Assembly (NCBI RefSeq): GCF_000203975.2
Contig: NZ_AFCF02000003.1
Span: 379,327-443,326, forward strand
Length of the DNA: 64,000 nt
Direction: 5' to 3'
Origin: Leisingera sp. ANG1
Lineage (GTDB): Bacteria > Pseudomonadota > Alphaproteobacteria > Rhodobacterales > Rhodobacteraceae
Under the pieces are notes generated by a model. That model saw only the letters and a program-made list of their open reading frames with translations. It did no database searches and was not told where the DNA came from. A program made the position numbers and the translations under genes. Positions 7,232 to 24,474 of the stretch are shown piece by piece; within the stretch, counting starts at the first letter, position 1, and each line of letters begins with the position of its first letter.

Positions 7232-7525
7232 TCAGGCTTCAGCGCCTTCAACAATCACGATGTTGGCGATGCCCGCATCAATGCGGTGATTTTTTGCAGC
7301 TTGGTATTCAGACGAATTATAGCAGGCGAGCGCGGCCTCCAGCGTGTCGAACTCGATTACAACATTACGCAGATGGCCGTCGCCTTCGAGCTGCTCGCAG
7401 GTTCCACCGCGCGCCAGCACCCGCGCGTTGAACTTTCGGAAAGCCTCCGTCGCCCCGGCGGCATAAAGGGCATAGGGCTCGGGATCCGTCACCGTGACAT
7501 GTGCAATCCAGTAGGCTTTGGGCAT
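7232..7525 (-). CDS. DUF1330 family protein
   Basis: A 97-residue protein with the DUF1330 pattern: KAYWIAHVTVTDPEPY at the N terminus, GATEAFRKFNARVLARGG, then VVIEFDTLEAALACYNSSEYQAAK. The family is a small ferredoxin-like alpha/beta fold, usually dimeric, without a generally assigned reaction. It is the last gene of a seven-gene leftward run that begins with pntA, separated by 67 bases from the permease. Its place suggests an accessory step in the same nucleobase pathway, which is inference only. Confidence 0.85.
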   Translation of the reverse strand: MPKAYWIAHVTVTDPEPYALYAAGATEAFRKFNARVLARGGTCEQLEGDGHLRNVVIEFDTLEAALACYNSSEYQAAKNHRIDAGIANIVIVEGAEA

Positions 7526-7560
7526 TGGGCATTCTTTCAGATTAATGTCTGCAGCACGCG

Positions 7561-7583
7561 CCGGAGCGGATTTTCCGCTCCGG
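7561..7583. other. Perfect intercistronic hairpin
   Basis: Arms CCGGAGCGGA and TCCGCTCCGG form a perfect 10-bp stem with a 3-base loop, between the permease stop and the DUF1330 start. Neither strand has a following U tract, so it more likely affects mRNA processing or stability than full termination. Confidence 0.5.
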
Positions 7584-7592
7584 AGCCTTGTC

Positions 7593-9083
7593 TTACCTGT
7601 TCAGGATCTTCGACAGCACCAGATAGGCGGCACCGGCCACGAACAGGCCCACGAACCAGGCATAGGTATAGATCGTGGCGAAGAAGTCCGAGGTACCGGC
7701 GGTGAGGCCAACACCTGCCAGGAAGCCCGGCAGGTTCGGCAGGATGCCGATCACCAGCGCCCAGACACCGGCCCAGTTGGTGCCGTTGCTGCCGGAGTAG
7801 ATGCCGTTCATCTTGAACAGATCGGCCACTTCCAGCTTGGTCTTGCGCAGCAGGTAGTAGTCCGCCAGCATCACGCCCGCAATCGGACCCAAGAGCGCCG
7901 AATAGGCGATCAGCCAGCCGATGATGTGGTTCACCAGGATCCAGGGGAACATGGCAATGCCGATGCCCGCGGTGATGTAGCCGCCGCGCTTGAGGTTGAT
8001 CTTGCTGGGCGCCAGGTTCGAGAACCCGTGCGCAGGTGCCACCACATTGGCTGCCAGGTTGGTGGTCAGCGTCGCCACGATCAGCGCAAACAGCGCGATG
8101 ATCACCGAAAATCCGCCCATCTTCTCGGACAGCTGGATCGGATCCCAGATCGCCTCGCCGTAGATCACTACAGTGGCCGAGGTCACGGCAGAGGCGATGA
8201 AGGCAAACAGCGCCATCGGAACCGGCAGGCCGACCAATTGGCCCAGCAGCTGGTCCTTCTGGCTGCGCGCGTGGCGGGTAAAGTCGGGAATGTTCAGCGC
8301 CAGGGTCGCCCAGAAGCCGATCATGCCGGTGAGGCTCGGCCAGAACACCACCCAGAACTGGCCTTCCTGCGGCTGGCCGGGATCAAAGGCGCTGGGGGTC
8401 GACAGCATCTCTCCGAAGCCGCCCGCGTTGACATAGGCCCAGGCCAGCAGTGCCAGCCCCATCGCCAGCAAGAACGGTGCCGCATAGGTCTCCAGCCAGC
8501 GGATCGACTCGGTGCCATTTGCAATGAAGTAGAGATGCAGCGCCCAGAAGGCGAGGAAACAAATGAACTCGCCCGCGCTGATGCCCAGCACCGGCAGCGC
8601 CTCGCCCGCCAGCGCGCCGCCCGTGAGGGTGTTCAGGATCACAAAGATCGCCGAACCGCCAACCCAAGTTTGAATGCCGAACCAGCCGCAGGCAACGATA
8701 CCGCGGGCCACCGCCGGAATCTTGGCGCCGCTGGGTCCGAAGGACGAGCGCAGAAGCACCGGAAAGGGTATGCCGTATTTGGTGCCCGCATGGCCAACCA
8801 GCACCATTGGGATCAGCACGATGGCATTGGCCGCCAGAATGGTCAGCACCGCCTGGTCCCAGCTCATGCCCGATCCGATCAGGTAGGAGGCCAGCAGATA
8901 GGTCGGGATACAGACCACCATGCCGACCCAAAGCGCGGCAATCGCCAGCCAGTCCCAGGTGCGTTCCACCGCCGTTGTGGGCAGCTGGTCCTCGTTATAC
9001 AGTTCCGGGTCGATCCCGGTCAGATCGGTCCGCGGCGGCGCCTCGGCGCCGGATGCGGAAAACCCGCTGGTGATATCAGCCAT
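7593..9083 (-). CDS. NCS1 family nucleobase/hydantoin:cation symporter
   Basis: A 496-residue inner-membrane transporter with about twelve hydrophobic segments. The N-terminal signature (LTGIDPELYNEDQLPT, then ERTWDWLAIAALWVGM) is typical of NCS1 permeases such as the hydantoin carrier Mhp1 and bacterial uracil/allantoin transporters. The start at 9083 has a strong ribosome site (GGGAGGA); a longer frame to 9152 lacks one. Substrate cannot be fixed from sequence, but the gene follows a dihydropyrimidinase and a carbamoylase, so uracil, thymine, dihydropyrimidines or hydantoins are the best candidates. Confidence 0.9.
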   Translation of the reverse strand: MADITSGFSASGAEAPPRTDLTGIDPELYNEDQLPTTAVERTWDWLAIAALWVGMVVCIPTYLLASYLIGSGMSWDQAVLTILAANAIVLIPMVLVGHAGTKYGIPFPVLLRSSFGPSGAKIPAVARGIVACGWFGIQTWVGGSAIFVILNTLTGGALAGEALPVLGISAGEFICFLAFWALHLYFIANGTESIRWLETYAAPFLLAMGLALLAWAYVNAGGFGEMLSTPSAFDPGQPQEGQFWVVFWPSLTGMIGFWATLALNIPDFTRHARSQKDQLLGQLVGLPVPMALFAFIASAVTSATVVIYGEAIWDPIQLSEKMGGFSVIIALFALIVATLTTNLAANVVAPAHGFSNLAPSKINLKRGGYITAGIGIAMFPWILVNHIIGWLIAYSALLGPIAGVMLADYYLLRKTKLEVADLFKMNGIYSGSNGTNWAGVWALVIGILPNLPGFLAGVGLTAGTSDFFATIYTYAWFVGLFVAGAAYLVLSKILNR

Positions 9084-9151
9084 TTTCAGTTTCCTCCCTG
9101 TTATTGGCTTACTGCCGCCCTGTCCTCCACAGGGCCGCAGATGCGAAAGCA

Positions 9152-9167
9152 CCCGGCCTGTGCCGGG
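9152..9167. other. Small intercistronic hairpin
   Basis: CCCGGC and GCCGGG pair with a 4-base loop in the 91-base gap between the hydantoinase and permease genes. A second small hairpin (CCCTGT/ACAGGG) lies just to its left. No U tract follows on the minus strand. Confidence 0.35.
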
Positions 9168-9174
9168 GGTATGA

Positions 9175-10635
9175 TCAGACGCAGGCCGGCATGTTTTCAG
9201 CCGAACGCACGACCTGGCGCGGTGCGGTCACCTCTTTCCACTTGGACAGCGCCTTGTTGACTTCGGGGTACGCGGGCCGGTCCACAAACCGCCCGTGGCC
9301 CGGGGTGGCGCAGACGGTGCCGTCATCTACCGCCACCTCGCCGCAGCTGAGCGTGTAGCGGGGCAGGCCGGTGACCTCGCGGCCAGAGAACACGTTGTAT
9401 TCCACAACCGATTGCTGGGTTTCTGGAGAAATCACCTTGGATTTCTTGGGATCCCACACCACCAGGTCGGCGTCGGAGCCTTCCACAATCGCTCCTTTTC
9501 GCGGGTAGATATTGAGGATCTTGGCGATATTGGTGGAGGTGACGGCGACAAACTCGTTCGGAGTCAATCGGCCTGTATTCACTCCCTCGTTCCAAAGGAC
9601 CGGCATCCGGTCCTCAAGGCCGCCGGTGCCGTTCGGAATTTTGGTGAAGTCATCGATGCCAAAGCGTTTCTGATCCACGGTAAATGCACAGTGGTCGGTC
9701 GCCACAACCTGCAGGGAGCCTGCCTGCAGACCGGCCCACAGGCTGTCCTGATGCGCCTTGTCCCGGAATGGCGGCGACATCACCCGCTGCGCGGCGTGGT
9801 CCCAGTTGGGATGGCGGTATTCGCTTTCGTCCAGCACCAGATGCTGGATCAGCGGCTCGCCAAAGACCCGCATTCCCTTCTGGCGTGCCCGGCGGATCGC
9901 CTCATGCGCCTGTTCGCAGGAGGTATGCACGACATACAGCGGCACACCCGCCATGTCGGCGATCATGATAGCGCGGTTGGTGGCCTCGCCCTCAACCTCC
10001 GGCGGGCGCGACAGCCCATGCCCCTCCGGCCCGGTGATACCGTCGGCCAGCAGCTTCTGCTGCATGGTGGCCACCACATCGCCGTTTTCCGCATGCACCA
10101 TCGGCAGCGCCCCCAGCGCGGCGCAGCGGCGGAACGAGTCGAACAGCTCGTCATCGTCCACCATCAGCGCGCCTTTGTAGGCCATGAAGTGCTTGAAGGA
10201 GTTGATGCCGAGATCCACAACCTGCTGCATCTCGTTGAACACCTGCTCGCTCCACCAGGTCACCGCCATGTGGAAGGAGTAGTCGGCGCAGGCGCGTTTC
10301 GACTTGGCGTGCCAGGCCTCCAGCGCCGCCAGCATAGACTGGCCGGGGCTGGGAAGGCAGAAGTCCACCACCATGGTGGTGCCGCCCGCAAGGCCCGCGC
10401 GGGTGCCGCTTTCAAAATCATCCGCCGAATGGGTGCCCATGAAGGGCATCTCCAAATGCACATGCGGATCAATGCCGCCCGGCATGACATAACAGCCTTC
10501 GGCCTCCAGCACCCTGTCGCCGCTGAGGCCCGCGCCGATCTGCACGATTTTGCCATCCTCGATGGCGACATCAGCGGCATAGCTGCGGTCGGCGGCAACA
10601 ATGGTGCCGCCCTTGATCACGGTTCTCTGACTCAT
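9175..10635 (-). CDS. hydA: Dihydropyrimidinase / D-hydantoinase
   Basis: A 486-residue cyclic amidohydrolase. Metal-binding HVH (residues 58-60, in GGIDPHVHLEMP) and the carbamylated lysine motif MAYKG (Lys about 154) match dihydropyrimidinases; GDVV and EGHGLSRPPEVE motifs follow. It opens dihydrouracil to N-carbamoyl-beta-alanine, or dihydrothymine to the methyl analogue; related enzymes also hydrolyse 5-substituted hydantoins. The start at 10635 (MSQRTVIKGG) is chosen over an upstream ATG because it is the family N terminus. Five bases separate it from the upstream carbamoylase gene, which performs the next step, so the pair is co-translated. Cytoplasmic. Confidence 0.92.
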   Translation of the reverse strand: MSQRTVIKGGTIVAADRSYAADVAIEDGKIVQIGAGLSGDRVLEAEGCYVMPGGIDPHVHLEMPFMGTHSADDFESGTRAGLAGGTTMVVDFCLPSPGQSMLAALEAWHAKSKRACADYSFHMAVTWWSEQVFNEMQQVVDLGINSFKHFMAYKGALMVDDDELFDSFRRCAALGALPMVHAENGDVVATMQQKLLADGITGPEGHGLSRPPEVEGEATNRAIMIADMAGVPLYVVHTSCEQAHEAIRRARQKGMRVFGEPLIQHLVLDESEYRHPNWDHAAQRVMSPPFRDKAHQDSLWAGLQAGSLQVVATDHCAFTVDQKRFGIDDFTKIPNGTGGLEDRMPVLWNEGVNTGRLTPNEFVAVTSTNIAKILNIYPRKGAIVEGSDADLVVWDPKKSKVISPETQQSVVEYNVFSGREVTGLPRYTLSCGEVAVDDGTVCATPGHGRFVDRPAYPEVNKALSKWKEVTAPRQVVRSAENMPACV

Positions 10636-10640
10636 GCCGA

Positions 10641-11891
10641 TTACTCCACGATCTCTGCGGTTTCCAGCACGGCGTGCAGCAGCACATCCGTCCCCGCCGC
10701 CGCCCATTCGCGGCTGATTTCCTCGTCCTCGTTATGGCTCAGTCCATCGACGCAGGCGCACATCACCATTGCAGTCGGCGCCACCTTGTTGATCCAGCAG
10801 GCATCATGCCCCGCGCCGGAGATGATATTGCGGTGCGAATAGCCCAGCTTCTCCGCCGCACGGCGCACAGCATCCACACAGCCCTCGTCAAAGGTGACCG
10901 GGTCGAAATGCCCTGCCCGTTCGATCTCCAGCCCCAGTTCCAGCTCCTCGGCAATCTTCGCCGCACCCTCGCGCAGGCGCTGCTCCATATCGGTCTGGGT
11001 GTCAAAGCTGGGCGAACGGAAGTCGATGGTGAACACCACCTTGCCCGGAACAATGTTACGGCTGTTGGGGTAATAGTCGCAGTGGCCAACGGCACCGACA
11101 GCGTCGGGCTGGTGGCTCATCGCGATTTCATGCACCAGATCGGTGATCCGCGCCGCGCCAAGGCCCGCATTGCGGCGCATCGGCATCGGGGTGGAACCGG
11201 TGTGCGCCTCTTGCCCTGTCAGCGTCACCTGAAGCCAGTTCAGGCCCTGGCCGTGAGTGACGACACCAATGTCCTTGCCCTCGGCCTCCAGGATCGGGCC
11301 CTGCTCGATGTGCAATTCAAACATCGCGTGCATCTTGCGGCTGCCCACCGGCTCATCACCCTTGTAGCCGATCCGGGCCAGCTCCTCGCCGAATGTCTTG
11401 CCCTCGGCGTCCTCGCGCCCGTAGGCCCAGTCCTGGGTATGAACGCCGGCAAAGACGCCGGAGGATAGCATCGCGGGAGCAAACCGCGTGCCTTCCTCAT
11501 TGGTCCAGTTCACCACCACGATGGGACGGCGCGGGGTGATGCCCTGATCGCGGATCGAGCGCACCACCTCAAGCCCCGCCAGCACGCCCAGCACGCCATC
11601 GTATTTGCCGCCCGTCGGCTGGGTGTCCAGATGGCTGCCCATCATCACCGGGTCCAGATCCGGCTCGGCGCCCTCAAGGCGGGCAAACATGTTGCCCATG
11701 CTGTCGACGCCCACCGTCATGCCGGCCTCTTCACACCAGCGCTTGAACAGGTCGCGGCCTTCCTTGTCGGCATCGGTCAACGTCTGGCGGTTGTTGCCGC
11801 CGCGCACCCCTGGGCCCTTCTGCGCCATTTCCATAAGCGAATCCCACAGGCGGCTGCCATTGATGCGGGCGTTGCTTTGCACGTCTTTCAT
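10641..11891 (-). CDS. Zn-dependent amidase/carbamoylase (beta-ureidopropionase-like, M20 family)
   Basis: A 416-residue M20-family hydrolase. Metal-ligand motifs visible are GSHLDTQPTGGKYDGV, NWTNEEGTRF and a late GAGHDACWI plus GLSHNEDEE. This subgroup contains beta-ureidopropionase, N-carbamoyl-L-amino-acid hydrolase and allantoate amidohydrolase. Next to a dihydropyrimidinase the likely reaction is N-carbamoyl-beta-alanine to beta-alanine, carbon dioxide and ammonia. The start at 11891 (MKDVQSNARI) follows a plausible ribosome site (GGGAGAG). Allantoate hydrolysis is an alternative but no ureide genes are nearby. Confidence 0.88.
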   Translation of the reverse strand: MKDVQSNARINGSRLWDSLMEMAQKGPGVRGGNNRQTLTDADKEGRDLFKRWCEEAGMTVGVDSMGNMFARLEGAEPDLDPVMMGSHLDTQPTGGKYDGVLGVLAGLEVVRSIRDQGITPRRPIVVVNWTNEEGTRFAPAMLSSGVFAGVHTQDWAYGREDAEGKTFGEELARIGYKGDEPVGSRKMHAMFELHIEQGPILEAEGKDIGVVTHGQGLNWLQVTLTGQEAHTGSTPMPMRRNAGLGAARITDLVHEIAMSHQPDAVGAVGHCDYYPNSRNIVPGKVVFTIDFRSPSFDTQTDMEQRLREGAAKIAEELELGLEIERAGHFDPVTFDEGCVDAVRRAAEKLGYSHRNIISGAGHDACWINKVAPTAMVMCACVDGLSHNEDEEISREWAAAGTDVLLHAVLETAEIVE

Positions 11892-11908
11892 GTTGTCTCT
11901 CCCTTGGC

Positions 11909-11950
11909 GGCTGCCGGCCCCGCACGCTCCTCCGCGGCGGACCGGCAGCC
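11909..11950. other. Long-loop hairpin between aminotransferase and carbamoylase genes
   Basis: Arms GGCTGCCGG (11909-11917) and CCGGCAGCC (11942-11950) are exact complements in the 65-base gap. It may set relative expression within the operon; no terminator U tract is present. Confidence 0.35.
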
Positions 11951-11956
11951 GGTTGG

Positions 11957-13276
11957 TCACGCGATGAGCGACTCGGCCAGGATGCCGATCAGCTCGTCGA
12001 TTTCAGATTTTTCGATGATCAGCGGCGGCGACATGGCAATGATGTCGCCGGTTGTGCGCAGATGCGCCCCCCTGTCCCAGGCCCGCAGATAGGTGTCAAA
12101 GGCGCGTTTGGTCGGCTGGCCCGCAACCGGCTCCAGCTCCACCGCGCCCACCAGGCCGGAACAGCGGATGTCCGCCACATGCGGCAGGCCCTTGAGGCTG
12201 AACAGCGCCTCGGTCCAATAGTCCTCCAGCCCTGCGGCCCGCTCAAACAGCTGTTCCTCGCGGTAGGTGTCCAGCGCCGCCAGCGCTGCCGCGCAGGCGA
12301 CCGGATTGCCGGAGTAGGTATAGCCGTGAAACAGCTCGATCAGGTTCTCCGGACCGGTCATGAAGGCATCGTGGATCTCGCTGCTGATCATAACCGCACC
12401 CATCGGAATGACACCATTGGTCAGCCCCTTGGCGGTGGTGATCATGTCCGGCTCGACGCCATAGTAATCCGCGCCAAACGCGCGGCCCAGGCGGCCATAG
12501 GCCGTGATCACCTCGTCGAAAATCAACAGGATGCCATGCTCGCGGGTGATCTCGCGCAGCCGCTCCAGGTACCCCTTCGGCGGCAGGATCACCCCGGCGG
12601 AACCCGCCATCGGCTCGACGATCACCGCGGCAATGGTTTCGGCCCCGTGCAGCTCGATCAGCCGCACCAGATCCTCCGCCAGCTCCGCGCCATGTTCCGG
12701 CTGGCCCTTGGTAAAGGCGTTGCGCTCCGGATCATGGGTGTGGCGCAGGTGGTCGACCCCGGTCAGCAGGCTGCCGAAATGCCGGCGGTTGTTGACGATG
12801 CCACCGACCGAGATGCCGCCGAAATTGACCCCGTGATAGCCTTTCTCGCGCCCGATCAGCCGGGTGCGGCCCGGCTCGCCCTTGGCCTTGTGGTAGGCCA
12901 GCGCGATCTTCAGCGCGGTCTCCACCGATTCAGAGCCGGAGTTGGTGAAGAACACGTGGTTCAGATCGCCCGGCGCCAAATCCGCCAGCCGTGCGGCCAG
13001 CTCAAACGCCTTGGGGTGGCCCATCTGGAAGGCCGGCGCATAGTCCAGTTCAGTGACCTGCTTCTGCACCGCCTCGGTGATGCGCGGCGCGGCGTGGCCT
13101 GCATTGACGCACCACAGGCCCGCGGTGCCATCCATCACCTTGCGCCCGTCGGTGGTGGTGTAATACATGCCCTCGGCCGAGGCGACCATGCGCGGGTTCT
13201 CCTTGAAATGCCGGTTGGCGGTGAAGGGCATCCAATAGGCGTCCATGGCGTTTGCGCGTTTTGGATCAGTGGTCAT
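11957..13276 (-). CDS. Class III omega-amino acid:pyruvate aminotransferase (beta-alanine transaminase-like)
   Basis: A 439-residue PLP enzyme with the class III signature: YWMPFTANRHFKENPR at the start, FFTNSGSESVETALK, the IFDEVITAYGR motif and the PLP lysine in TTAKGLTNG. It fits beta-alanine:pyruvate aminotransferases, giving malonate semialdehyde from beta-alanine, the final nitrogen-releasing step after the ureidopropionase. 3-aminoisobutyrate from thymine would be an equal substrate. The start at 13276 (MTTDPKR) is chosen because the upstream extension has no family match. The gap to pntB is 25 bases, so it is in the same transcript. Confidence 0.88.
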   Translation of the reverse strand: MTTDPKRANAMDAYWMPFTANRHFKENPRMVASAEGMYYTTTDGRKVMDGTAGLWCVNAGHAAPRITEAVQKQVTELDYAPAFQMGHPKAFELAARLADLAPGDLNHVFFTNSGSESVETALKIALAYHKAKGEPGRTRLIGREKGYHGVNFGGISVGGIVNNRRHFGSLLTGVDHLRHTHDPERNAFTKGQPEHGAELAEDLVRLIELHGAETIAAVIVEPMAGSAGVILPPKGYLERLREITREHGILLIFDEVITAYGRLGRAFGADYYGVEPDMITTAKGLTNGVIPMGAVMISSEIHDAFMTGPENLIELFHGYTYSGNPVACAAALAALDTYREEQLFERAAGLEDYWTEALFSLKGLPHVADIRCSGLVGAVELEPVAGQPTKRAFDTYLRAWDRGAHLRTTGDIIAMSPPLIIEKSEIDELIGILAESLIA

Positions 13277-13301
13277 ATCCAAATCCTTTTCTTGAGAGTG
13301 T

Positions 13302-14741
13302 TCAGGCCGCAATCTGGTTCAGCAGCGTATCGAGGCTCTGCTTTGCATCGCCATAGACCATGCGGGTGTTTTCCTTGAAGAACAGGGGGTTCTCGATGCC
13401 GGAGTAGCCGGTGCCCTGGCCGCGCTTGGAGACAAACACCTGTTTCGCCTTCCAGCATTCCAAGACCGGCATGCCCGCGATCGGCGAGTTGGGGTCTTCC
13501 TGGGCGGCGGGGTTGACGATGTCGTTGGAGCCGATGACGATGGCCACGTCGGTGTCCGGGAAGTCCTCGTTGATCTCGTCCATTTCCAAGACGATGTCGT
13601 AAGGCACTTTGGCCTCGGCCAGCAGCACGTTCATGTGGCCCGGCAGGCGGCCCGCAACCGGGTGGATGGCAAAGCGCACCTCTTTGCCCTTGGCGCGCAG
13701 GCGGCGGGTCAGCTCAGCCACGTTCTGCTGCGCCTGGGCCACCGCCATGCCGTAGCCGGGGATGATGATGACGCTGTCGGCCTCATCCAGCGCGGTGGCA
13801 ACGCCGTCGGCGTCGATGGCGATCTGCTCGCCTTCCACTTCCATCGCGGGACCGGTGGTGCCGCCGAAGCCGCCCAGGATCACGCTGACGAAGGAGCGGT
13901 TCATCGCCTTGCACATGATGTAGGAGAGGATCGCACCGGAGGAGCCCACCAGCGCGCCGACCACGATCAGCAGGTCGTTGCCCAGCGAGAAGCCGATCGC
14001 CGCCGCGGCCCAGCCGGAGTAGCTGTTCAGCATCGAGACCACCACCGGCATGTCGGCGCCGCCGATGCCCATGATCAGGTGGTAGCCGATGAACAGCGCC
14101 GCCAGGGTCATCAGGAACAGCGGCAGGAAGCCGCCGGAGCTGAAGTACCAGATCAGGCAGAGGAAGGAGAGGCCCGCCGCGCCCGCGTTCAGCATATGGC
14201 CGCCCGGCAGCTTGGTGGCAGCCGAGGTGACCTTGCCCGCCAGCTTGCCAAAGGCGATGACCGAGCCGGTGAAGGTGATGGCGCCGATGAAGATGCCGAG
14301 GAACAGCTCAACCCGCAGGAAGGAGATCTCTGCCGGGGTCTTCTTGGCAATCAGCTTGGCAAAGGTGCCGAGGTCTTCGGTGCTGCCCGCGGCCACGGCG
14401 GCCGCCACATTGCCGATCTCAAAATGGGCGATGAAGCCCACAAAGACCGCAGCCAGACCGACCAGCGAGTGCATCGCGGCAACCAGCTGCGGCATCTCGG
14501 TCATCTGGACCTTCTTGGCGACATAGGTGCCGATGATGCCGCCGCCCGCGATCAGCAGGATCGACAGCAGCCACAGGCCGGAACCGGGGCCGATCAGGGT
14601 GGCGAAAACCGCCAGCCCCATGCCGGCAATGCCGTACCAGACCGCGCGCTTGGCGCTTTCCTGGTTCGACAGGCCGCCCAAGCTGAGGATGAAAAGAACA
14701 GCCGCAACGACATAGGCGGCGGTGGTGAAACCGTAATCCAT
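13302..14741 (-). CDS. pntB: NAD(P) transhydrogenase subunit beta
   Basis: A 479-residue integral membrane protein with a run of hydrophobic segments over the first 270 residues and a C-terminal NADP(H)-binding domain ([14 protein letters not shown], then [21 protein letters not shown] and [12 protein letters not shown]). With PntA it forms the proton-driven transhydrogenase that makes NADPH from NADH at the inner membrane. It follows pntA by 16 bases. Being first in a catabolic operon is unusual and suggests the operon needs extra NADPH. Confidence 0.96.
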
Positions 14742-14757
14742 TTGTTCGGCCCCTCTT

Positions 14758-16329: not shown

Positions 16330-16586
16330 GGCCGTTCTCCTCCCATTGCGCCAGACCCGCCCCACAGGTGAGTCGGATGGCATCATTCATCATGTTTCTT
16401 TTTTTACCAGATAGTCAAATTTTTAGTTTTCAGTCAACAAAATTGTACCACGTAAGCAGGTATTCAACATTTTTTTGCTTTGTTTTCTATAGTTACAGTA
16501 TTTTGCAGGCATGTTTTTTATCTACTAGTCAAATTTAAGGTTGACAGAATCCAGGAGTCCCACAAACCTGAAAGCAGGAGGAGCCC
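16330..16586. promoter_or_regulatory. AT-rich divergent control region between pntA and cofG
   Basis: This 257-base region is far more AT-rich than its surroundings and must hold the promoters of both operons. An 11-base direct repeat TAGTCAAATTT occurs at 16412-16422 and 16526-16536. The core GTCAA is found at 16414, 16433 and 16528, and its complement TTGAC at 16541-16545, so GTCAA-N8-TTGAC forms an inverted repeat just ahead of cofG. E. coli RutR sites use TTGAC/GTCAA halves, though in the opposite order, so binding of the nearby RutR-like protein here is a reasonable guess. TTGACA at 16541 could alternatively be a -35 box. Confidence 0.6.
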
Positions 16587-17729
16587 ATGAACATTCAACT
16601 GACCAAACCAAGTGAATCCTGGGCGGCGGCCGGGGACCTGCATGACTTGATGGCCCGTGCCCGCCAGATCCGCGATGCCCATTGGGGGCGCACCGTCACC
16701 TATTCCCGCAAGGCCTTTGTGCCGCTGACCAACATGTGCCGCGACACCTGCGGCTATTGCACCTTCGTCAAGCATCCCGACTCGCCCGAAGCGAACATCA
16801 TGACGCCGGAGCAGGTGCTTGCCACGGCCCGCCGCGGTGAGCGGGAAGGCTGCAAGGAGCTGCTGTTCAGCCTCGGCGAGAAACCGGAACTGCGCTACGA
16901 GAAGGCGCGCAAAGCACTGGAGCGGCTCGGCTATTCCAGCCTGACCGCCTATCTGGCCGAGATGTGCGCGCTGGTGCTGCGGGAAACCGCGCTGCTGCCG
17001 CATGTGAACGCAGGCACGCTGACCAGCGAAGAGATTGACCTCTTGCGGCCGGTCTCTGCCTCGATGGGGATGATGCTGGAAACCGTCAGCCGCCGCCTGA
17101 CCCGCAAGGGCCAGCCGCATTATGCCTGCCCCGACAAGGTGCCGGTGCAGCGGCTGCGCACGCTAGAACGGGCGGGCGAGAAGAAAGTGCCCTTCACCAC
17201 CGGCCTGCTGATCGGCATCGGCGAGACTTTTGAAGAGCGTATCGAGGCGCTGCACGCGATCAACGGCGCCCACGCCCGCCACGGCCACATCCAGGAAGTG
17301 ATCATCCAGAACTTCCAGCGCAAGCCAGATATCGCCATGGCGAACCACCCGGAGCCGCCGCTGGAAGACATGCTGCGCACCATCGCGGCGGCCCGCATCA
17401 TCCTGTCGCCGGACATCAGCCTGCAGGCGCCGCCGAACCTCAGCGCCCGCCATCCGGCCTACCTGGACGCAGGCATCAACGACTGGGGCGGCATCTCGCC
17501 GGTCACCATCGACTTCATCAATCCGCAGCATGAATGGCCGGAGATCCGCCAGCTTGCCGCCTCCTGCACCCAGGCCGGGTTCCAGCTGCGCGAGCGGCTG
17601 ACGGTCTACCCCAGCTACCTGGCCGCCGGCAGCGGCTTCATCGACCCGGAAATTCTGGCCCGCGCCTCCGGCATGGCGCAGGCCAACGGACTGGCACGCG
17701 ACCAGCAGCACATGGGAGAAACAGCATGA
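16587..17729 (+). CDS. cofG: FO synthase subunit 1 (7,8-didemethyl-8-hydroxy-5-deazariboflavin synthase)
   Basis: A 380-residue radical SAM enzyme with the [4Fe-4S] motif CRDTCGYC (Cys 51, 55, 58) in a context (YSRKAFVPLTNMC) specific for CofG. With CofH it builds the deazaflavin chromophore FO from tyrosine and a flavin precursor (5-amino-6-ribitylamino-uracil). In actinobacteria the two activities are fused in FbiC; here they are separate genes, as in archaea and cyanobacteria. It begins the rightward operon after an AGGAGGAG site and overlaps cofH by ATGA. Confidence 0.95.
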   Translation: MNIQLTKPSESWAAAGDLHDLMARARQIRDAHWGRTVTYSRKAFVPLTNMCRDTCGYCTFVKHPDSPEANIMTPEQVLATARRGEREGCKELLFSLGEKPELRYEKARKALERLGYSSLTAYLAEMCALVLRETALLPHVNAGTLTSEEIDLLRPVSASMGMMLETVSRRLTRKGQPHYACPDKVPVQRLRTLERAGEKKVPFTTGLLIGIGETFEERIEALHAINGAHARHGHIQEVIIQNFQRKPDIAMANHPEPPLEDMLRTIAAARIILSPDISLQAPPNLSARHPAYLDAGINDWGGISPVTIDFINPQHEWPEIRQLAASCTQAGFQLRERLTVYPSYLAAGSGFIDPEILARASGMAQANGLARDQQHMGETA

Positions 17730-18997
17730 CCATCCAACCCCCCGCAGAGAAGTTTGCCGCAGTCCCGGCGGCCGTCAGCGCCGCCTCCGCTCCGGTTCGC
17801 GCCATTCTGGAACTGGCGTTGGAAGGCGGCGAGGTGTCAGAAGCCGAAGGCACAGAGCTGTTCCGCACCACCGGCGCTGACGCCGAAGCGGTCTATGCGG
17901 TGGCCGACGAACTGCGCCGCCGCGCCAACGGCGGCCACGTCTCCTTTGTGGTCAACCGCAACATCAACTTCACCAACATCTGCTACATGGGCTGCCGCTT
18001 TTGCGGCTTTGCCAAACGGTCCGAGGACAAGGACGCCGAGTGGCTGGAGCCCGCCCAGATCATCGAGCGCGCGCAGCAGGCCTGGGACCGCGGCGCGACC
18101 GAGGTCTGCATCCAGGGCGGGCTGCACCCCAAGATGGAAGGCACCTATTACCGCGACATCGTGCGCGCCATCAAGGCGGCGCTGCCCGACATGCATATCC
18201 ACGCCTTCTCGCCGTTTGAGATTTGGTACGGTGCCTCCAAGACCAAGATGTCCTATCATGACTTCCTGGCCGATCTGAAGGCGGCGGGCCTCGGCTCGAT
18301 GCCCGGCACCGCGGCGGAAATCCTCGATACCGAAGTGCGGATGCAGCTGACCAAGAACAAGCTGAGCGCCGAGAAATGGGTGGAGATCATCCGCGCCGCG
18401 CATGACGTCGGCATCCCGACCACTGCCACCATCATGTACGGCCATATCGACGGGCCGGAGCATTGGGCGGCGCACATCCGCCTTTTGCGCGACATCCAGA
18501 AAGACACCGGCGGCTTTACCGAACTAGTGCCACTGTCCTTTGTGCACACGGAATCGCCCCTTTGGGCACAGAACCCGGACACCGTGCGCCCCGGCCCCAC
18601 CGCGCTGGAGGTGGACCTGATGCACGCGGTCTCGCGCATCATGCTGCACGGCTGGATCGACAACATCCAGGTCAGCTGGACCAAGCTGGGCGCGGCCCGG
18701 GCGCAACAGATGCTGTCGCGCGGCGTCAACGACCTCGGCGGCACGCTGATGAACGAAAGCATCTCGCGCGCGGCCGGGTCGGACCACGGCCAGGAAATCA
18801 CCGCCCGCGAGCTGGCGCAGATCATCCGCGCCGCGGGCCGGGTGCCGGTGCGCCGCAACACCATCTACGAGGTGCGCGAGGTTTATGAGCATCACGACCC
18901 CGAGGTGATCGCGCCGCTGGTGGACCGCCAGGGCCGTGACCCGCTGGCCTTCCTGGAAATGTTCCCGGAGCGCCCCGCGCTGGAGGCGGCGGAATGA
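17726..18997 (+). CDS. cofH: FO synthase subunit 2
   Basis: A 423-residue radical SAM enzyme with CYMGCRFC (Cys 86, 90, 93) and the CofH-type sequence NRNINFTNIC before it. It joins tyrosine-derived hydroxybenzyl to the ribityl-uracil precursor in FO synthesis. The start at 17726 lies in a four-base ATGA overlap with cofG, which fits coupled, stoichiometric translation. The roughly 70-residue N-terminal part before the cluster is normal for CofH. Confidence 0.95.
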   Translation: MTIQPPAEKFAAVPAAVSAASAPVRAILELALEGGEVSEAEGTELFRTTGADAEAVYAVADELRRRANGGHVSFVVNRNINFTNICYMGCRFCGFAKRSEDKDAEWLEPAQIIERAQQAWDRGATEVCIQGGLHPKMEGTYYRDIVRAIKAALPDMHIHAFSPFEIWYGASKTKMSYHDFLADLKAAGLGSMPGTAAEILDTEVRMQLTKNKLSAEKWVEIIRAAHDVGIPTTATIMYGHIDGPEHWAAHIRLLRDIQKDTGGFTELVPLSFVHTESPLWAQNPDTVRPGPTALEVDLMHAVSRIMLHGWIDNIQVSWTKLGAARAQQMLSRGVNDLGGTLMNESISRAAGSDHGQEITARELAQIIRAAGRVPVRRNTIYEVREVYEHHDPEVIAPLVDRQGRDPLAFLEMFPERPALEAAE

Positions 18998-19962
18998 GCG
19001 GCGCAGGCAAGCATAAGGTGACGCTGCTGGCCGGCGGCGTCGGCGGCGCCAAGATGGCCGAGGGGCTGGCAGCCCTGCCGGATGTGCAGCTCTCGGTGAT
19101 CGGCAATGTGGCGGATGACGATGCCTTCCACGGCCTCTGGGTCTCGCCCGATATCGACACGCTGACCTACAGCCTTGCGGATGTGATCGACCGCAGCCAG
19201 GGCTGGGGCGTCGCGGATGAGGGCCACCGGGCGCTGGAAACGCTGACCAAACTGGGCGCGGACACCTGGATGTCGCTGGGCGACCGCGACTTCGGCCTGC
19301 ACATCTACCGCACCATGCGGCGGCTTCGCGGCGACCGGCCCAGCGAGATCGCCCGTGACGTTGCCCGCGCCTTTGGCGTCACGGCAGAGATCCTGCTGCC
19401 CACCGACGGCACCGTGCAAACCCGGGTGCGCACCGATGCGGGCTGGCTGAGTTTCCAGGAGTATTTCGTGCGCGAACGCTGCGCGCCGGAGGTCCGGGAA
19501 CTGGCCTTCGAAGGCCTCGCCCGGGCCCGCCCAACGCCGGAGGCGCTGGAGGCAATCCGCGCAGCAGACCTGATCGTGATTGCACCGTCCAATCCGCTGG
19601 TCAGCATTGCCCCGATCTTGGGCATTCCAGGCATAGCGGACGCGGTGCAGGCCTCCGCCGCGCCCAAGATCGCTGTCAGCCCCTTCATTGACGGCAAGGT
19701 TGTGAAAGGCCCCGCCGACCGGATGATGCAGGCGCTGGGGGAGCAGACAGACGCGCTTGGCGTTGCCCGCCGCTACCGCGGCCTCGCCGGTACATTGTTC
19801 ATCGACCACGCCGACGCGTCGCTGGCGGGCGCCATCCGCGCCGAAGGGCTGGAGCCGGTCTGCAGCCGCATCCTGATGAAAACCCATGAGGACAAGACCC
19901 GGCTGGCCCGCGAAATCGTCGACCTGGCATTTGCTCCGGTCCATCTGGAGGCAACCGCATGA
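18994..19962 (+). CDS. cofD: 2-phospho-L-lactate transferase (FO transferase)
   Basis: A 322-residue CofD/FbiA family protein with the N-terminal LLAGGVGGAKMAEGLA and NVADDDAFHGLWVSPDIDTL signature that binds FO, and SNPLVSIAPILGIPG in the middle. It transfers the phospho-three-carbon moiety from a GDP- or GPP-activated donor to FO, giving F420-0 (or its dehydro form). Coupled by ATGA overlaps to both neighbours. Confidence 0.95.
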   Translation: MSGAGKHKVTLLAGGVGGAKMAEGLAALPDVQLSVIGNVADDDAFHGLWVSPDIDTLTYSLADVIDRSQGWGVADEGHRALETLTKLGADTWMSLGDRDFGLHIYRTMRRLRGDRPSEIARDVARAFGVTAEILLPTDGTVQTRVRTDAGWLSFQEYFVRERCAPEVRELAFEGLARARPTPEALEAIRAADLIVIAPSNPLVSIAPILGIPGIADAVQASAAPKIAVSPFIDGKVVKGPADRMMQALGEQTDALGVARRYRGLAGTLFIDHADASLAGAIRAEGLEPVCSRILMKTHEDKTRLAREIVDLAFAPVHLEATA

Positions 19963-20618
19963 CCCCGCAACAAGGTACCGGCAAGCGGCTCGCCGTGATC
20001 CCGATGAAGGACCCGTCAAAGGCCAAGACCCGGCTCGCCGTCGCCCTCACCCCGCAGGAGCGCAGGGTGCTGGCGGAAGGGCTGTTCCAGGCCACCGTCG
20101 CGAAACTGCAAGAGGCCCTGGCCCGCCTCCCCGGCGGCACGGCGGATATTGCCGTGGTCAGCAACAGCCCGGTGATTGCCCGGATCGCCCGTCAGGGCGG
20201 CCTCATCTGCATCGACGACCAGGACCCCGGCGCGCTGTCGCTGGCAGTGGAGGCCGCCGCCGTTTGGGCGGCACAGCAGGGATACAGTGCGCTTTGCGTT
20301 CTGCCCGGCGATCTCGCCGCCCCGTCCACGGACGACCTCACCCGGCTGCTGGCACACCCGCTGGATAACAACAGCGCGCTGTTCTGCCCGGCCAAGGATC
20401 TGGGGACCAATGCACTGCTGGCGCCCCTGCCCTGCCCCTTCCCGTTCCGCTACGGGCCGAAGTCTCTGATCGCGCATCTGCACGCGGCAGAGGCCGCCGG
20501 GCTTTGCCCCCGGGTGCTGCCGCTGGCCAGCCTCCGCATTGACGTCGATACAGCCGAGGATCTTGATCACCTGCTGGCCCATAACCCGCAGGCACTGGCG
20601 CGGGAGGGCGCGCAATGA
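19959..20618 (+). CDS. cofC: 2-phospho-L-lactate guanylyltransferase
   Basis: A 219-residue CofC/FbiD nucleotidyltransferase: VIPMKDPSKAKTRLA at the N terminus, CVLPGDLAAPSTDDL in the middle, and the DLGTNALL and FRYGPKSLIAH motifs towards the end. It activates the three-carbon acid with GTP for CofD. Known enzymes use 2-phospholactate, phosphoenolpyruvate or 3-phosphoglycerate; sequence by eye does not decide which. ATGA overlaps on both sides. Confidence 0.92.
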   Translation: MTPQQGTGKRLAVIPMKDPSKAKTRLAVALTPQERRVLAEGLFQATVAKLQEALARLPGGTADIAVVSNSPVIARIARQGGLICIDDQDPGALSLAVEAAAVWAAQQGYSALCVLPGDLAAPSTDDLTRLLAHPLDNNSALFCPAKDLGTNALLAPLPCPFPFRYGPKSLIAHLHAAEAAGLCPRVLPLASLRIDVDTAEDLDHLLAHNPQALAREGAQ

Positions 20619-21388
20619 GCCTTTCCGTCTCTCTCACCGCCATTCCCGGTGTGCCGGACATCCGCAACGGCGACGATCTAGCCGCGGTTCTGGGCGATTG
20701 CCTGGACCGGGCCGGCATGCCGCTCAAACGCGGCGACATCCTTTGCGTCGCGCAAAAAGTCTTCTCCAAGGCCGAGGACTGCATCATCCCGCTGGCCTCG
20801 GTGACGCCGTCGGCGGAGGCGCTGAAATACGCCGAAGAGCTGAACAAGGACCCGCGCAAGGTCGAGATCGTCCTGCGCGAAAGCACCCGCGTGGTGCGCG
20901 CCTTCCGCCGCCCGGACCAGAACGAGGGCACGATGATCTGCGAGCACCGGCTCGGCTTCATCTCAGCCAATGCGGCGGTGGATGAGTCGAATTTCGGCGA
21001 GGAAGATGCGGCGATGATACTGCCGCCCGATCCGGATGCCAGCTGCGCCCGGCTGCAGCAGGATCTGTCGCACCGTTTTGACGCCGAGATCGGCGTGGTA
21101 ATGACCGACACCTTCGGTCGCCCCTGGAGGCTGGGCCAGGTCAATGTGGCGATCGGCCTGGCCAAAGTGCCCGCGACCATCCGCGAACAGGGCAAAAGCG
21201 ACGCCTGGGGCCGCCCGCTGCAGGTGACTGAACCGGCACTGGCCGATGAAATCGCCGCCGCCTCGGGGCTGGTGGTGCGCAAGAACGGAAAGACACCGGC
21301 GGTGCTTCTGCGCGGGCTCGACTGGCAGCCCGCCGACAGCCGCGGCGCCGACATACTCAGGAAAAAACAGGAGGATATGTTCCGATGA
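20615..21388 (+). CDS. cofE: Coenzyme F420-0:L-glutamate ligase
   Basis: A 257-residue CofE protein, with [17 protein letters not shown] near the N terminus and [20 protein letters not shown] in the centre. It adds gamma-linked glutamates to F420-0. It has the short archaeal-type length and lacks the C-terminal nitroreductase-like domain found in actinobacterial FbiB, which there reduces dehydro-F420-0. So if CofC used phosphoenolpyruvate, another reductase would be required. Overlaps both neighbours by ATGA. Confidence 0.94.
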
Positions 21389-22053
21389 GGATCGCAATCA
21401 TTGGCGGCACCGGGCCGCAGGGACAGGGTCTGGCTTTGCGCTTTGCCCGCGCCGGCATCAATGTGGCTCTGGGTTCGCGCGACGGTGAGCGCAGCGCCGG
21501 CATCGCAGCAGAGCTGATGGCGAAACTGCCCGCGGGCGCCGCCGAAATCACCGGCCTCGGCAATGAAGCCGCCACCGCAGCTGCGGATGAGATGGTGATC
21601 CTCGCGGTGCCATTCTCCGCCCACAACGCCACGCTCAAGGCGCTGAAGCCGGGCCTTGCGGGCAAGATCCTGGTCGACATCGTGGTGCCGCTCAAGGAAG
21701 GCGACCCCAAGAAGGTGGAAATGCCGCCCGAAGGCTCCGCCACCGAGGCCGCGCAGGCGCTCCTAGGCGACGAGATCCCGGTGATCGGCGCGCTGCACAA
21801 CGTGTCGGCCACCACGCTCAACAACCTGGACTGGCCGATCAACTGCGACATCCTGGTCTGCGGCAACAGCCTGCCTGCCCGCAAGAAGGTGATGGAGCTG
21901 GTCGGCGCGCTGGATGTCCAGGCCTACAACGCCGGCGACGCCGAGGCCGCCCGCTGCATCGAGGCGATCACCCCGATCCTGATCCGCCAGAACATTTCCA
22001 AGGCGGTGCCCTTCACCCATGCGGGCATCCGCATCTGGGCCCCCGATCACTGA
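21385..22053 (+). CDS. npdG: NADPH:F420 oxidoreductase
   Basis: A 222-residue Rossmann protein with [18 protein letters not shown] at the N terminus, ALGSRD, and [10 protein letters not shown] in the substrate half, the pattern of F420-dependent NADP reductases. It exchanges hydride between NADPH and F420. In a bacterium without other obvious F420 reducers in view (no Fgd here), it is the likely source of F420H2, drawing NADPH from the divergent transhydrogenase. It follows cofE with an ATGA overlap. Confidence 0.93.
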
Positions 22054-22078
22054 GATTCCAACGAGGAGGAAAACACAC

Positions 22079-23119
22079 ATGGAATTCGGTATTTGCTTCA
22101 AGGGCTTCGTTGAGCCCGAACGCGCCCGCGCGCTGGTCCGCCAGGCCGAGAACGCAGGCTTCACCTACTGCTGGTTCTACGACAGCCACATCCTGTGGCG
22201 CGAAAGCTTCGTCGCCATGGCGATGTGCATGGAGCACACCACCAACATGCGCTTCGGCCCGCTGGTGACCAACCCGAACTCGCGCGAGTGGTCGGTGGCG
22301 GCCTCGCTGTTCGGCTCGCTGGCGAAACAGTCCGGCGGCCGTTTCGACATCGGTCTCGGCCGCGGCGACAGCGCCGTGCGGGTGATGGGCAAGAAGCCCT
22401 CGACCATCAAGCGGATGGAAGAGTTCACCCACGTGGTCAAATCGCTGATCCGCGGCGAGGAAGTGCAGTACGGCGAATGCCCCGAGCCGGTGAAATTCCC
22501 CTGGGCGCAGGGCTATGAGCTGCCGGTCTGGATCGGCGCCTACGGCCCCAAGGCGCTGGCCTCAGCCGGCAAGGTCGGCGACGGCGTGGTGCTGCAGATC
22601 GCCGAGCCCAAGATCATCAAATGGCTGGCCGATCAGGCCAAGGCCGGCGGTGAGGCTGAAGGCCGCGACATGTCAAACTACCGCGTCATGGCCGCAGCGC
22701 CCGCCCACACCGGCCCAATCGAGGAAGGCATCGAGAAGACCAAGTGGTTCCCTGCCATGGTCGGCAACCACGTCGCTGACATCGTCGAGAAATACGGCAC
22801 CGGCGGCGATCATGTCCCGACCAGCCTGACCGACTACATCAAGAACCGCAAAGGCTACGACTATTCCAAGCACGGCCAGAGCGATAACCCCTATCTCGAC
22901 TTCATCACCGAGGACATCGTCAAGAGCTTCTGCGTGCTCGGCACCCCGGATGAGCATATCGCCAAGATCCGCGATCTGGAGGCCGCTGGCACCACCCAGT
23001 TCAACATCTATCTGGACAGCGGCGACGAGGAGAAGATCATCGCCGATTACGGCGATCACATCATCCCGGCCTTCCGGGAGGACGGTTCCGTATCCTCCCC
23101 GATGTTGGCTGCCTCCTAA
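22079..23119 (+). CDS. LLM-class F420-dependent oxidoreductase (CPS_4043-like)
   Basis: A 346-residue luciferase-like monooxygenase-fold protein. The opening FGICFKGFVEPERA, the CWFYDSHILW strand, LVTNPNSREW and FDIGLGRGDSAVR place it among F420-using LLM enzymes rather than FMN ones; as I recall, the proteobacterial family TIGR03842 has this form. It follows npdG by 25 bases with a strong AGGAGG site and ends at a terminator, so it is the only F420-consuming enzyme in the operon. Given the divergent genes for dihydropyrimidine and carbamoyl-beta-alanine breakdown, I infer it reduces uracil/thymine (or a related ring) with F420H2. An FMN-dependent RutA-like ring-opening role is less likely because a dihydropyrimidinase is present. 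Confidence 0.85.
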   Translation: MEFGICFKGFVEPERARALVRQAENAGFTYCWFYDSHILWRESFVAMAMCMEHTTNMRFGPLVTNPNSREWSVAASLFGSLAKQSGGRFDIGLGRGDSAVRVMGKKPSTIKRMEEFTHVVKSLIRGEEVQYGECPEPVKFPWAQGYELPVWIGAYGPKALASAGKVGDGVVLQIAEPKIIKWLADQAKAGGEAEGRDMSNYRVMAAAPAHTGPIEEGIEKTKWFPAMVGNHVADIVEKYGTGGDHVPTSLTDYIKNRKGYDYSKHGQSDNPYLDFITEDIVKSFCVLGTPDEHIAKIRDLEAAGTTQFNIYLDSGDEEKIIADYGDHIIPAFREDGSVSSPMLAAS

Positions 23120-23157
23120 GGGCTGACGCCAGCCATCTCCCCTGACGGCACAGCCTT

Positions 23158-23190
23158 CCGGCGGGCAGCCTCCCCTGCCCGCCGGTTTTT
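23158..23190 (+). terminator. Rho-independent terminator of the F420 operon
   Basis: Arms CCGGCGGGCA (23158-23167) and TGCCCGCCGG (23176-23185) make a perfect 10-bp stem, followed at once by five T residues. It lies 38 bases after the LLM oxidoreductase stop and separates the operon from the regulator gene. Confidence 0.85.
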
Positions 23191-23299
23191 GCTGCCCGCA
23201 GCCGCCGTCGGACCGCCCGCCGGACCGCCCGCTGGCCTTCCCCCCCGAGTTGTGCCAAGACAGCGCCGAGTCGGATTGATATGAAATGGCGGATTCCGC

Positions 23300-23923
23300 A
23301 TGGCGCGCATGGCATCAGAGAAACCGAAGACCAAGATCCAGCGTCAGAAAACAGAACAAATCATGGCCGCGGCGCTTGAAGTCTTCTCCCGTCATGGTTC
23401 TTCCGGCGCATCTATCAACATGATTGCCAAAACAGCAGGGCTGACTACTCCCAACCTGCTTTATTACTTTGAAAGCAAGGACGCGATCCGGCGGGAGCTT
23501 ATGGGCCGAACACTGCAGCTGTGGATGGCACCGTTGAGCATGCTGAGCCCGCACGGCGAACCTATTGATGAAATCTGCGAATACATCCGGCGAAAATTGG
23601 ACGTGTCACGAAGCTTCCCCAAGGAAAGCAAGTTCTTTGCCAATGAGGTCCTGAGCGGGCTGCCGCGTTCCCGCAGCGAAATCTTTGGCCCTCTCAAAGA
23701 GCTCTACAGCGCAAAAATCCTGCTGCTGGAAGAATGGATGAATGACGGAAAGATTGCATCTGTGGATCCGCATCACCTTCTGTTTTCGATTTGGGCAACC
23801 ACGCAGCACTATGCCGACTTCGACGTACAAATCGCGGAAATTGCTCCCAGCAAGGCGGAAGACAGATATGTTGAGGCTGAAGCATTTCTCTTAGAAATGT
23901 ACAAAAAATTACTCGCCGTTTAA
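23300..23923 (+). CDS. TetR-family regulator, RutR-like
   Basis: A 207-residue repressor with an N-terminal TetR helix-turn-helix (residues about 17-62, ending TPNLLYYFESKDAI) and a C-terminal domain that resembles E. coli RutR closely in places: LWMAPLS, YIRRKLDVSR, and IDP/VDPHHLLFSIWATTQHYADF. RutR binds uracil/thymine and controls pyrimidine catabolism. This supports a pyrimidine ligand and a role in controlling the divergent operons, though no bound site is proven. It is behind a terminator, so it has its own promoter. An alternative start is the ATG at 23309. Confidence 0.85.
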   Translation: MARMASEKPKTKIQRQKTEQIMAAALEVFSRHGSSGASINMIAKTAGLTTPNLLYYFESKDAIRRELMGRTLQLWMAPLSMLSPHGEPIDEICEYIRRKLDVSRSFPKESKFFANEVLSGLPRSRSEIFGPLKELYSAKILLLEEWMNDGKIASVDPHHLLFSIWATTQHYADFDVQIAEIAPSKAEDRYVEAEAFLLEMYKKLLAV

Positions 23924-24397: not shown

Positions 24398-24474
24398 TGG
24401 CGATCCCTGAAGGACTCGAACCCTCAACCTGCTGATTAGAAGTCAGCTGCTCTATCCAGTTGAGCTAAGGGACC
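24398..24474 (-). tRNA. tRNA-Arg (anticodon TCT)
   Basis: The minus strand folds as a complete tRNA: acceptor stem GGTCCCT/AGGGATC with one G-U pair, D arm TAGCTCAACTGGATAGAGCA, anticodon loop CTTCTAA with TCT at 34-36, T arm with GGTTCGAGTCC, discriminator G and an encoded CCA. Its 3' end faces the integrase remnant, so it is a likely attachment site of a lost or decayed island. Confidence 0.97.

Follow-up and report, generated by a model that had tools for sequence, protein, structure and literature searches.

A divergent gene cassette in a 64,000-nucleotide stretch of the genome of the marine bacterium Leisingera sp. ANG1 (hereafter the window; contig NZ_AFCF02000003.1, G000:C14:379327-443326) quite likely encodes a self-contained module for reductive pyrimidine degradation, in which a luciferase-like monooxygenase (LLM) family oxidoreductase dependent on F420H2 would replace dihydropyrimidine dehydrogenase (PreTA/PydA). 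In the labels used here, G numbers denote genomes and L numbers loci, that is, stretches; G000 is the window's own genome (4.59 Mb, 20 contigs, 100% complete).

In the proposed scheme, an NCS1 permease would import the base and the PntAB transhydrogenase would make NADPH, which would reduce F420, a rare cofactor, via NpdG. The LLM enzyme, with F420H2, would then reduce uracil and/or thymine at C5=C6, giving the 5,6-dihydro compound, after which a dihydropyrimidinase would open the ring, a carbamoylase would remove the carbamate and an AptA-type aminotransferase would take the nitrogen off the beta-amino acid. A RutR-like repressor would tune both arms, cofactor synthesis included, to the pyrimidine supply. 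The evidence is stronger for a step that replaces PreA than for its exact substrate, and we infer the substrate, direction, electron path, regulator ligand and repression. More broadly, and with somewhat less assurance, it seems likely that the members of family TIGR03842 are F420H2-dependent uracil/thymine reductases, and that the F420 pathway in many proteobacteria mainly serves this step, is induced by pyrimidines via a repressor like RutR and can be carried from host to host on plasmids as a module.

The cassette and its candidate reductase

The cassette consists of two divergent gene sets at 7232-23923, a minus-strand arm from a DUF1330 gene to pntA and a plus-strand arm from cofG to a RutR-like TetR gene (Table 1). 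Family calls were made with curated NCBIfam cut-offs and Pfam models, and all the genes that an earlier note on this DNA had named for the two arms were found at the coordinates given and matched by family models. CofG, CofH, CofD, CofC, CofE, NpdG, PntA, NCS1, the dihydropyrimidinase, the carbamoylase, the aminotransferase and the LLM protein pass curated NCBIfam cut-offs, and PntB scores under that of NF006974 (662.8 vs 689 bits). No dihydropyrimidine dehydrogenase (PreA/PydA) was found by family models among the cassette's own genes.

The LLM protein belongs by curated score to family TIGR03842 (F420_CPS_4043; Table 1). In fold and sequence it lies nearest to the F420-dependent Mer, Adf and FGD, its nearest solved structures being those of Mer. 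Its use of F420 is predicted from these relatives and from the cof genes present in 45 of the 47 loci with complete flanks described below. Assignment as a Mer was rejected by score (129.8 vs a cut-off of 348.7 bits) and by position 6, which is not Glu. The residue at this position is Cys (34) or Thr (17) in all 51 homologues compared; Glu6 of Mer is presumably catalytic, and structure 8qq8 is an E6Q mutant. Assignment as an Fgd was likewise rejected (TIGR03557, 40.1 vs 210.4 bits). With regard to RutA, no sequence-level match was found among the listed models, and the fold alone fits either way.

There are three PF00296 genes in G000, and at E 1e-30 only one in each of G299, G303, G329 and G339. 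A second free-standing LLM gene of the window genome (L006, G000:C8:69592-73533) stands right after an open reading frame (ORF) that reads as a flavin reductase, a neighbour which suggests that the two are probably an FMN-dependent monooxygenase pair. Furthermore, a 1199-aa ORF, apparently of a nonribosomal peptide synthetase, contains a luciferase-like monooxygenase domain (L007, G000:C19:582289-586236).

Conservation of the LLM loci

Searched with the LLM protein, the GTDB genome collection yielded 146 relatives, and the counts below refer to the best 80 loci. These have 73-99% LLM identity and come from alpha- and gammaproteobacteria, Leisingera being the nearest named relatives. Gene content was scored with 17 query proteins in tblastn, on loci of which many stop short at a contig end or at the limit of the 10-kb flank. 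The F420 genes were found in 72 (cofG, cofC) or 73 (cofH, cofD, cofE) of the 80 loci, and npdG in 69. The RutR-like gene was seen in 55, the carbamoylase in 46, the dihydropyrimidinase in 39 and NCS1 in 31, while DUF1330, PreA and PreT were found in none of the 80 by the same search. In the 47 loci with both 10-kb flanks, cof genes occur in 45 and a dihydropyrimidinase or carbamoylase in 36. A query-free clustering of all ORFs also put the LLM, Cof, NpdG, RutR-like and carbamoylase families at the top, antisense shadow ORFs aside.

The order of the genes varies. In Marinomonas, the dihydropyrimidinase, NCS1 and carbamoylase genes diverge from a RutR-like-cof-LLM arm; the carbamoylase and dihydropyrimidinase genes lie downstream of LLM in L042, L058, L060, L089, L090 and L095; and L097 has yet another order. 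This recurrence across alpha- and gammaproteobacteria in differing orders indicates that the arrangement is not due to chance.

The 11 fully flanked loci that have no hydrolases nearby would fit the idea that the F420 and pyrimidine genes are chance neighbours, or co-regulated only, with the LLM serving an unrelated process; so would the Paracoccus alcaliphilus plasmid discussed below. Against this idea stand the linkage in different gene orders, the box-like sites found upstream of LLM even in loci of the Fgd type without nearby hydrolases (see below), and six genomes without nearby hydrolases (those of L047, L049, L050, L052, L055 and L059) that hold a carbamoylase-dihydropyrimidinase cluster elsewhere (L110-L115), beside a RutR-like gene and without PreA. 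Of all the explanations considered, it is the one to which we give the least credence. The other five of the 11 loci are L020, L030, L051, L053 and L072. In the genome of L030, the contig that bears LLM also has a dihydropyrimidinase gene, at a distance of about 13 kb and outside the flank, and in that of L051 the carbamoylase-dihydropyrimidinase cluster stands beside PreA (L120).

In the Roseibium-type loci L049, L052, L055, L059, L065, L070 and L072, an Fgd-like gene replaces npdG beside a fused FbiC, and the LLM gene is kept. Fgd and FbiC were scored in L049, where Fgd reaches 490.5 vs 420 bits with TIGR03554. The presence of Fgd in the place of npdG suggests that the LLM enzyme consumes F420H2.

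Assembly breaks affect some of the loci. The contig of L020 carries pntA and a 73% identical pntB without the aminotransferase, and another contig of the same genome (L124) opens inside a 93% identical pntB, followed by the aminotransferase, carbamoylase, dihydropyrimidinase, NCS1 and DUF1330 genes; the split would be explained if the assembly had crossed from one pntAB copy to another. Contig ends near or inside the cassette's pntA or pntB are also seen in the draft roseobacter loci L019, L022, L023, L025, L028, L029, L124, L126, L128 and L131, whose genomes may thus have a second pntAB copy of similar sequence. The contig of L022 is titled Nocardioides marinus DP1N28-1 and carries a roseobacter-type cassette with an LLM 97% identical to that of the window; the likely cause is a wrong label or contamination.

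Co-occurrence across genomes

PreA was searched for in 48 LLM-bearing genomes, covered by 50 loci chosen from the 80. It was not found in 38 of them, which include Paracoccus denitrificans DSM 413 and the searched Pseudovibrio, Marinomonas, Cohaesibacter and Oceanospirillum. The absence of pydA/preTA from LLM carriers, a test of which was proposed in the earlier note, does not extend to the other ten, namely Leisingera (2), Epibacterium, Thalassovita, Limimaricola (3), Shimia, one Roseibium and Ruegeria. Dihydropyrimidinase (TIGR02033) scored over its cut-off in 47 of 49 genomes, G000 included, and in 36 of the 38 PreA-less carriers.

A family-level sample comprised 48 genomes of the Marinomonadaceae, the family of G313 (Marinomonas sp. 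TW1). LLM is present in 24 of them, CofE in the same 24 and PreA in none of the 48, whereas dihydropyrimidinase is found in 25, these being the 24 LLM genomes and G353. The latter is not a valid counterexample, since its contig starts inside the cof cluster, so that the side with CofE, NpdG and LLM would fall beyond the edge. A single contig bears both LLM and dihydropyrimidinase in 22 of the 24 carriers, at a distance of 10.7-11.5 kb. On account of this linkage, the 24 carriers are not independent gains, and the pattern is that of one functional module rather than of 24 separate events. In an order-level sample LLM is rare, being found in 4 of 292 genomes with the window genome included. The survey of LLM with hydA/carbamoylase and cof genes that the earlier note had called for thus bore out their association, through the linkage in the 80 loci and the same 24 Marinomonadaceae.

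These data also bear on the possibility that LLM acts further down the pathway, beyond the aminotransferase, for example as an F420-dependent malonic/methylmalonic semialdehyde oxidoreductase, and that some other enzyme makes the dihydropyrimidine. If so, no known enzyme would reduce the ring in the 38 carriers in which the search for PreA found nothing. The possibility also agrees poorly with the lack of PreA in the 80 LLM loci and in the 48 Marinomonadaceae, and no LLM gene was seen in the stretches around PreA that were examined (4.3 to 18 kb). It therefore appears very improbable.

A second cassette and the exchange of hydrolases

A search of the window genome for DHO_dh genes found two, one being a class-2 PyrD by sequence (L003) and the other PreA (L004/L008; 726 vs a cut-off of 335 bits). 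The latter lies on G000:C1 in L008 (G000:C1:746000-765000), together with a PreT-like gene, a RutR-like gene, a carbamoylase, a dihydropyrimidinase and the gene of an ABC transporter ATPase. The gene upstream of preA is putatively named PreT, on account of its position and of its likeness to reductases of the glutamate-synthase type; none of the 14 listed models scored over its cut-off. The window's dihydropyrimidinase is 72% identical to the PreA-linked copy (L008:6440-7936), its carbamoylase 73% identical (L008:8025-9302) and its RutR-like protein 47% identical to that of L008. Two cassettes thus stand in parallel in this genome, alike in their hydrolases and unlike in their reductases, and the F420 cassette is here a second route, given that PreA has its own hydrolases. 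The missing dihydropyrimidine dehydrogenase of the earlier note thus holds for the window but not for the genome, where PreA rules it out. The note had also named a functional PydA/PreTA elsewhere, carrying the whole uracil flux, as a finding that would refute it; half of this applies, in that the gene is present.

Were LLM to stand in for PreA, one would expect the hydrolases that follow to be free to swap partners. Trees of both hydrolases were built with rows labelled by the linkage on the same stretch (LLM or PreA), unlabelled rows standing outside the count and two distant hydantoinase rows, L117 and L119, being left out of the dihydropyrimidinase set. The dihydropyrimidinase tree requires 3 linkage changes over 32 labelled rows (22 LLM, 10 PreA), and the carbamoylase tree requires 5 over 56 (46 LLM, 10 PreA). 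The LLM-linked L090 and L095 fall inside a PreA-linked group and the PreA-linked L129, from a Thalassovita genome, inside an LLM-linked group, in each case at starred forks. A single clade of PreA rows is rejected for the dihydropyrimidinase tree (p-AU 8e-83). The same genome appears twice in a few rows (P. denitrificans, Pseudovibrio exalbescens, Marinomonas MED121); such repeats cannot raise the number of changes. Both trees are unrooted, and the direction of exchange is therefore not told. The interleaving of the hydrolases of both linkages argues for the same or very similar substrates.

The two cassettes of the window genome raise the question of whether LLM reduces a related but distinct ring (a purine-derived one, for example, a 5-substituted uracil or some other cyclic ureide), in which case the cassette would widen the substrate range of PreTA and not take its place. 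D-Hydantoinases accept hydantoins, and the window genome keeps both cassettes, with hydrolases diverged to 72-73% and a permease of the F420 cassette's own. Additionally, an F420 luciferase-family enzyme has been proposed for yanthine reduction in Chloroflexota, according to the available part of the report (PMC12507026). A different ring nevertheless seems unlikely in view of the 38 of 48 carriers in which PreA was not found, the interleaving in the trees, and the occurrence of a RutR-like gene and RutR-box-like sites with both linkages. The RutR-like regulator and the partner exchange with PreA speak against the hydantoin that the earlier note had offered as an alternative.

The RutR-like regulator and its candidate sites

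The best solved relative of the TetR gene product is E. coli RutR (3loc, E 2.4e-43), and the protein scores under both curated RutR cut-offs (191.5 vs 368 and 168 vs 230 bits). Candidate sites were scored against TTGACCANNTGGTCAA, which we take to be the operator consensus of E. coli RutR, a consensus that was not found in the literature searched. A site with 2 mismatches lies between pntA and cofG (16403-16418), and a palindrome at 9390 in L008, between the carbamoylase and RutR-like genes there, matches the consensus in full.

Across loci, 300 bases upstream of each gene were scanned, with 200 permuted half-sites as the null and many rows congeneric. At up to 3 mismatches, 45 of 66 loci have a site upstream of cofG (permuted mean 1.13, largest 31) and 7 of 7 loci of the Fgd type have one upstream of LLM (mean 0.07, largest 3); the same is true of 16 of 19 PreA loci upstream of preT or carbamoylase (mean 0.24, largest 7) and of 24 of 46 LLM loci upstream of carbamoylase (mean 0.55, largest 23). 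At 2 mismatches, the counts are 6/7 for LLM, 7/19 for preT or carbamoylase in PreA loci and 9/46 for carbamoylase in LLM loci. In rate, the box signal is real, and we give it moderate weight.

Plasmids

LLM is found (E <=1e-100) in 11 of 72,556 plasmid records, ten of Leisingera and one of Paracoccus alcaliphilus. A complete 175,592-bp plasmid of L. aquaemixtae carries the entire cassette in the window's order. The P. alcaliphilus plasmid has DUF1330, cof, npdG, LLM and ABC transporter genes.

Weighing the proposal

Several observations weigh against the proposed module, beginning with its basis, which is genes and their comparison, not activity. The window genome itself also carries PreA, as do 10 of the 48 LLM carriers. 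Some parts of the scheme are seldom seen beside LLM, with pntA in 12, the aminotransferase in 7 and pntB in 3 of the 80 loci, and are thus lineage-bound or beyond the flanks. No hydrolases lie within 16 kb of LLM on the P. alcaliphilus plasmid, which speaks against a fixed unit, and two of the 36 fully flanked loci counted above as having hydrolases, L075 and L082, have hydrolases of only 29-32% identity. Seven of the 80 loci (L071, L075, L082, L083, L089, L092, L098) show no visible cof gene. The stretches of L071, L092 and L098 start just upstream of LLM, while no cof gene occurs in 6.2 kb upstream in L083 or in 10 kb upstream in L075, L082 and L089. The two PreA-less carriers that miss the dihydropyrimidinase cut-off are G311 (the genome of L053, a 2.2-Mb metagenome-assembled genome), which has none, and G323 (that of L072), which has a sub-threshold match. 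The co-occurrence in Marinomonas partly reflects gain and loss of one linked locus.

The trees and the sites carry reservations of the same kind. The one-clade test was set after the tree had been seen, and a long-branch warning applies to the carbamoylase tree, among its gammaproteobacterial rows. The window has 8 box matches at up to 3 mismatches, the 16403-16418 site among them, vs 1.26 in shuffles. The operon-internal control (upstream of cofE, cofD and npdG) gives 13/214 at up to 3 mismatches, with a mean of 1.81 and one permutation in 200 reaching this number, and at 2 mismatches it is itself somewhat enriched (8/214; mean 0.13, largest 4). For cofG, 14 of 66 regions have a site at 2 mismatches, and one permutation gives 21; furthermore, 21 of the 66 regions, that of P. 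denitrificans included, have no box at up to 3 mismatches.

With respect to L089, carbamoylase and dihydropyrimidinase genes stand beside its LLM although cof genes are missing from its flank.

F420-dependent degradation of nucleobases, as suggested in the earlier note, is well supported by the linkage, the 38 of 48 carriers in which PreA was not found, the mixing of the hydrolases and the box-like sites; the PreA of the window genome counts against it.

Features of the window

The coordinates of the cassette are collected in Table 1. The DUF1330 gene adjoins NCS1 in 6 of 7 related loci (NCS1 more than 60% identical, with 600 bases beyond). It is also kept beside cof-LLM on the P. alcaliphilus plasmid (L141:10083-10373), and its place there without nearby hydrolases suggests that DUF1330 may act with the F420 part.

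A tRNA-Arg (tct) gene lies just past the cassette, at 24398-24474. It was rejected as an insertion site, as a scan of 16 related loci found no tRNA-Arg and one tRNA-Met call in all. Further along, the window has a strong AT skew (0.316) at 56001-58000. On the minus strand, this part has ORFs that resemble siderophore-type ABC permeases, and the skew is thus apparently due to the base composition of genes for membrane proteins.

Table 1. Genes and candidate site of the cassette, in window positions, with the family models behind each call
Feature	Position	Strand	Basis
DUF1330 small protein	7232..7525	-	PF07045 only, 114.8 bits
NCS1 nucleobase:cation symporter	7593..9152 (start codon approximate)	-	TIGR00800, 359.8 vs cut-off 353.1
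Dihydropyrimidinase / D-hydantoinase	9175..10635	-	TIGR02033, 612.7 vs cut-off 393.25 bits
Carbamoylase, N-carbamoyl-beta-amino acid amidohydrolase type	10641..11891	-	TIGR01879, 401.6 bits
Omega-aminotransferase, AptA type	11957..13312 (ORF limits)	-	NF052567, 746 bits
pntB, proton-translocating transhydrogenase beta	13302..14741	-	PF02233 (PNTB), 619 bits
pntA, transhydrogenase alpha	14758..16386 (ORF limits)	-	NF006942, 805.6 bits
RutR-box-like palindrome TTTACCAGATAGTCAA	16403..16418	.	2 mismatches vs presumed consensus TTGACCANNTGGTCAA; divergent promoter region
cofG	16587..17729	+	TIGR03550, 459.7 bits
cofH	17726..18997 (start inferred from cofG overlap)	+	TIGR03551, 503.6 bits
cofD	18994..19962	+	TIGR01819, 275.9 bits
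cofC	19959..20618	+	TIGR03552, 139.5 bits
cofE	20615..21388	+	TIGR01916, 220.2 bits
npdG, NADPH:F420 oxidoreductase	21385..22053	+	TIGR01915, 188.1 bits
LLM oxidoreductase, proposed F420H2-dependent pyrimidine reductase	22079..23119	+	TIGR03842, 504.2 vs 295.45 bits
RutR-like TetR regulator	23300..23923	+	PF08362 + PF00440

Comparison with known systems

No report of F420-dependent pyrimidine catabolism in proteobacteria was found in the literature searched, which held no preprints and few subscription papers and is thus weak evidence of novelty. The closest known system is reductive pyrimidine degradation by PreTA/PydA, with which the cassette shares the same two hydrolases, the later aminotransferase and a RutR-like regulator. 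The two differ in the first reductase, which is the Fe-S/FMN protein PreA with PreT in the known pathway and an F420-type LLM TIM barrel in the cassette, and in the inclusion of a whole cofactor pathway in the latter.

Two other systems can be likened to the LLM by description only. SSGG-03002 / NpsU, a putative F420/FMN-dependent oxidoreductase, is assigned the reduction of the uracil C5=C6 bond in mureidomycin/napsamycin by genetics and NMR in the available part of the report, where no in vitro activity is said to have been obtained (PMC10714638). The bond type is the same, whereas NpsU acts in antibiotic biosynthesis, on a uracil moiety. In the uric acid clusters of Chloroflexota, a luciferase-family F420 yanthine reductase is predicted to replace a flavin reductase before ring opening, as described in the accessible part of that study (PMC12507026); this is a purine pathway in another phylum, and it is also only predicted.

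The comparison gives F420 a specific, testable job. TIGR03842, a hypothetical equivalog at NCBI, gains a proposed function, put forward here for the LLM of the window, and a putative F420 route is added to the known variants of pyrimidine ring reduction, with the whole cofactor pathway packaged together with one catabolic route on plasmids of L. aquaemixtae and other Leisingera.

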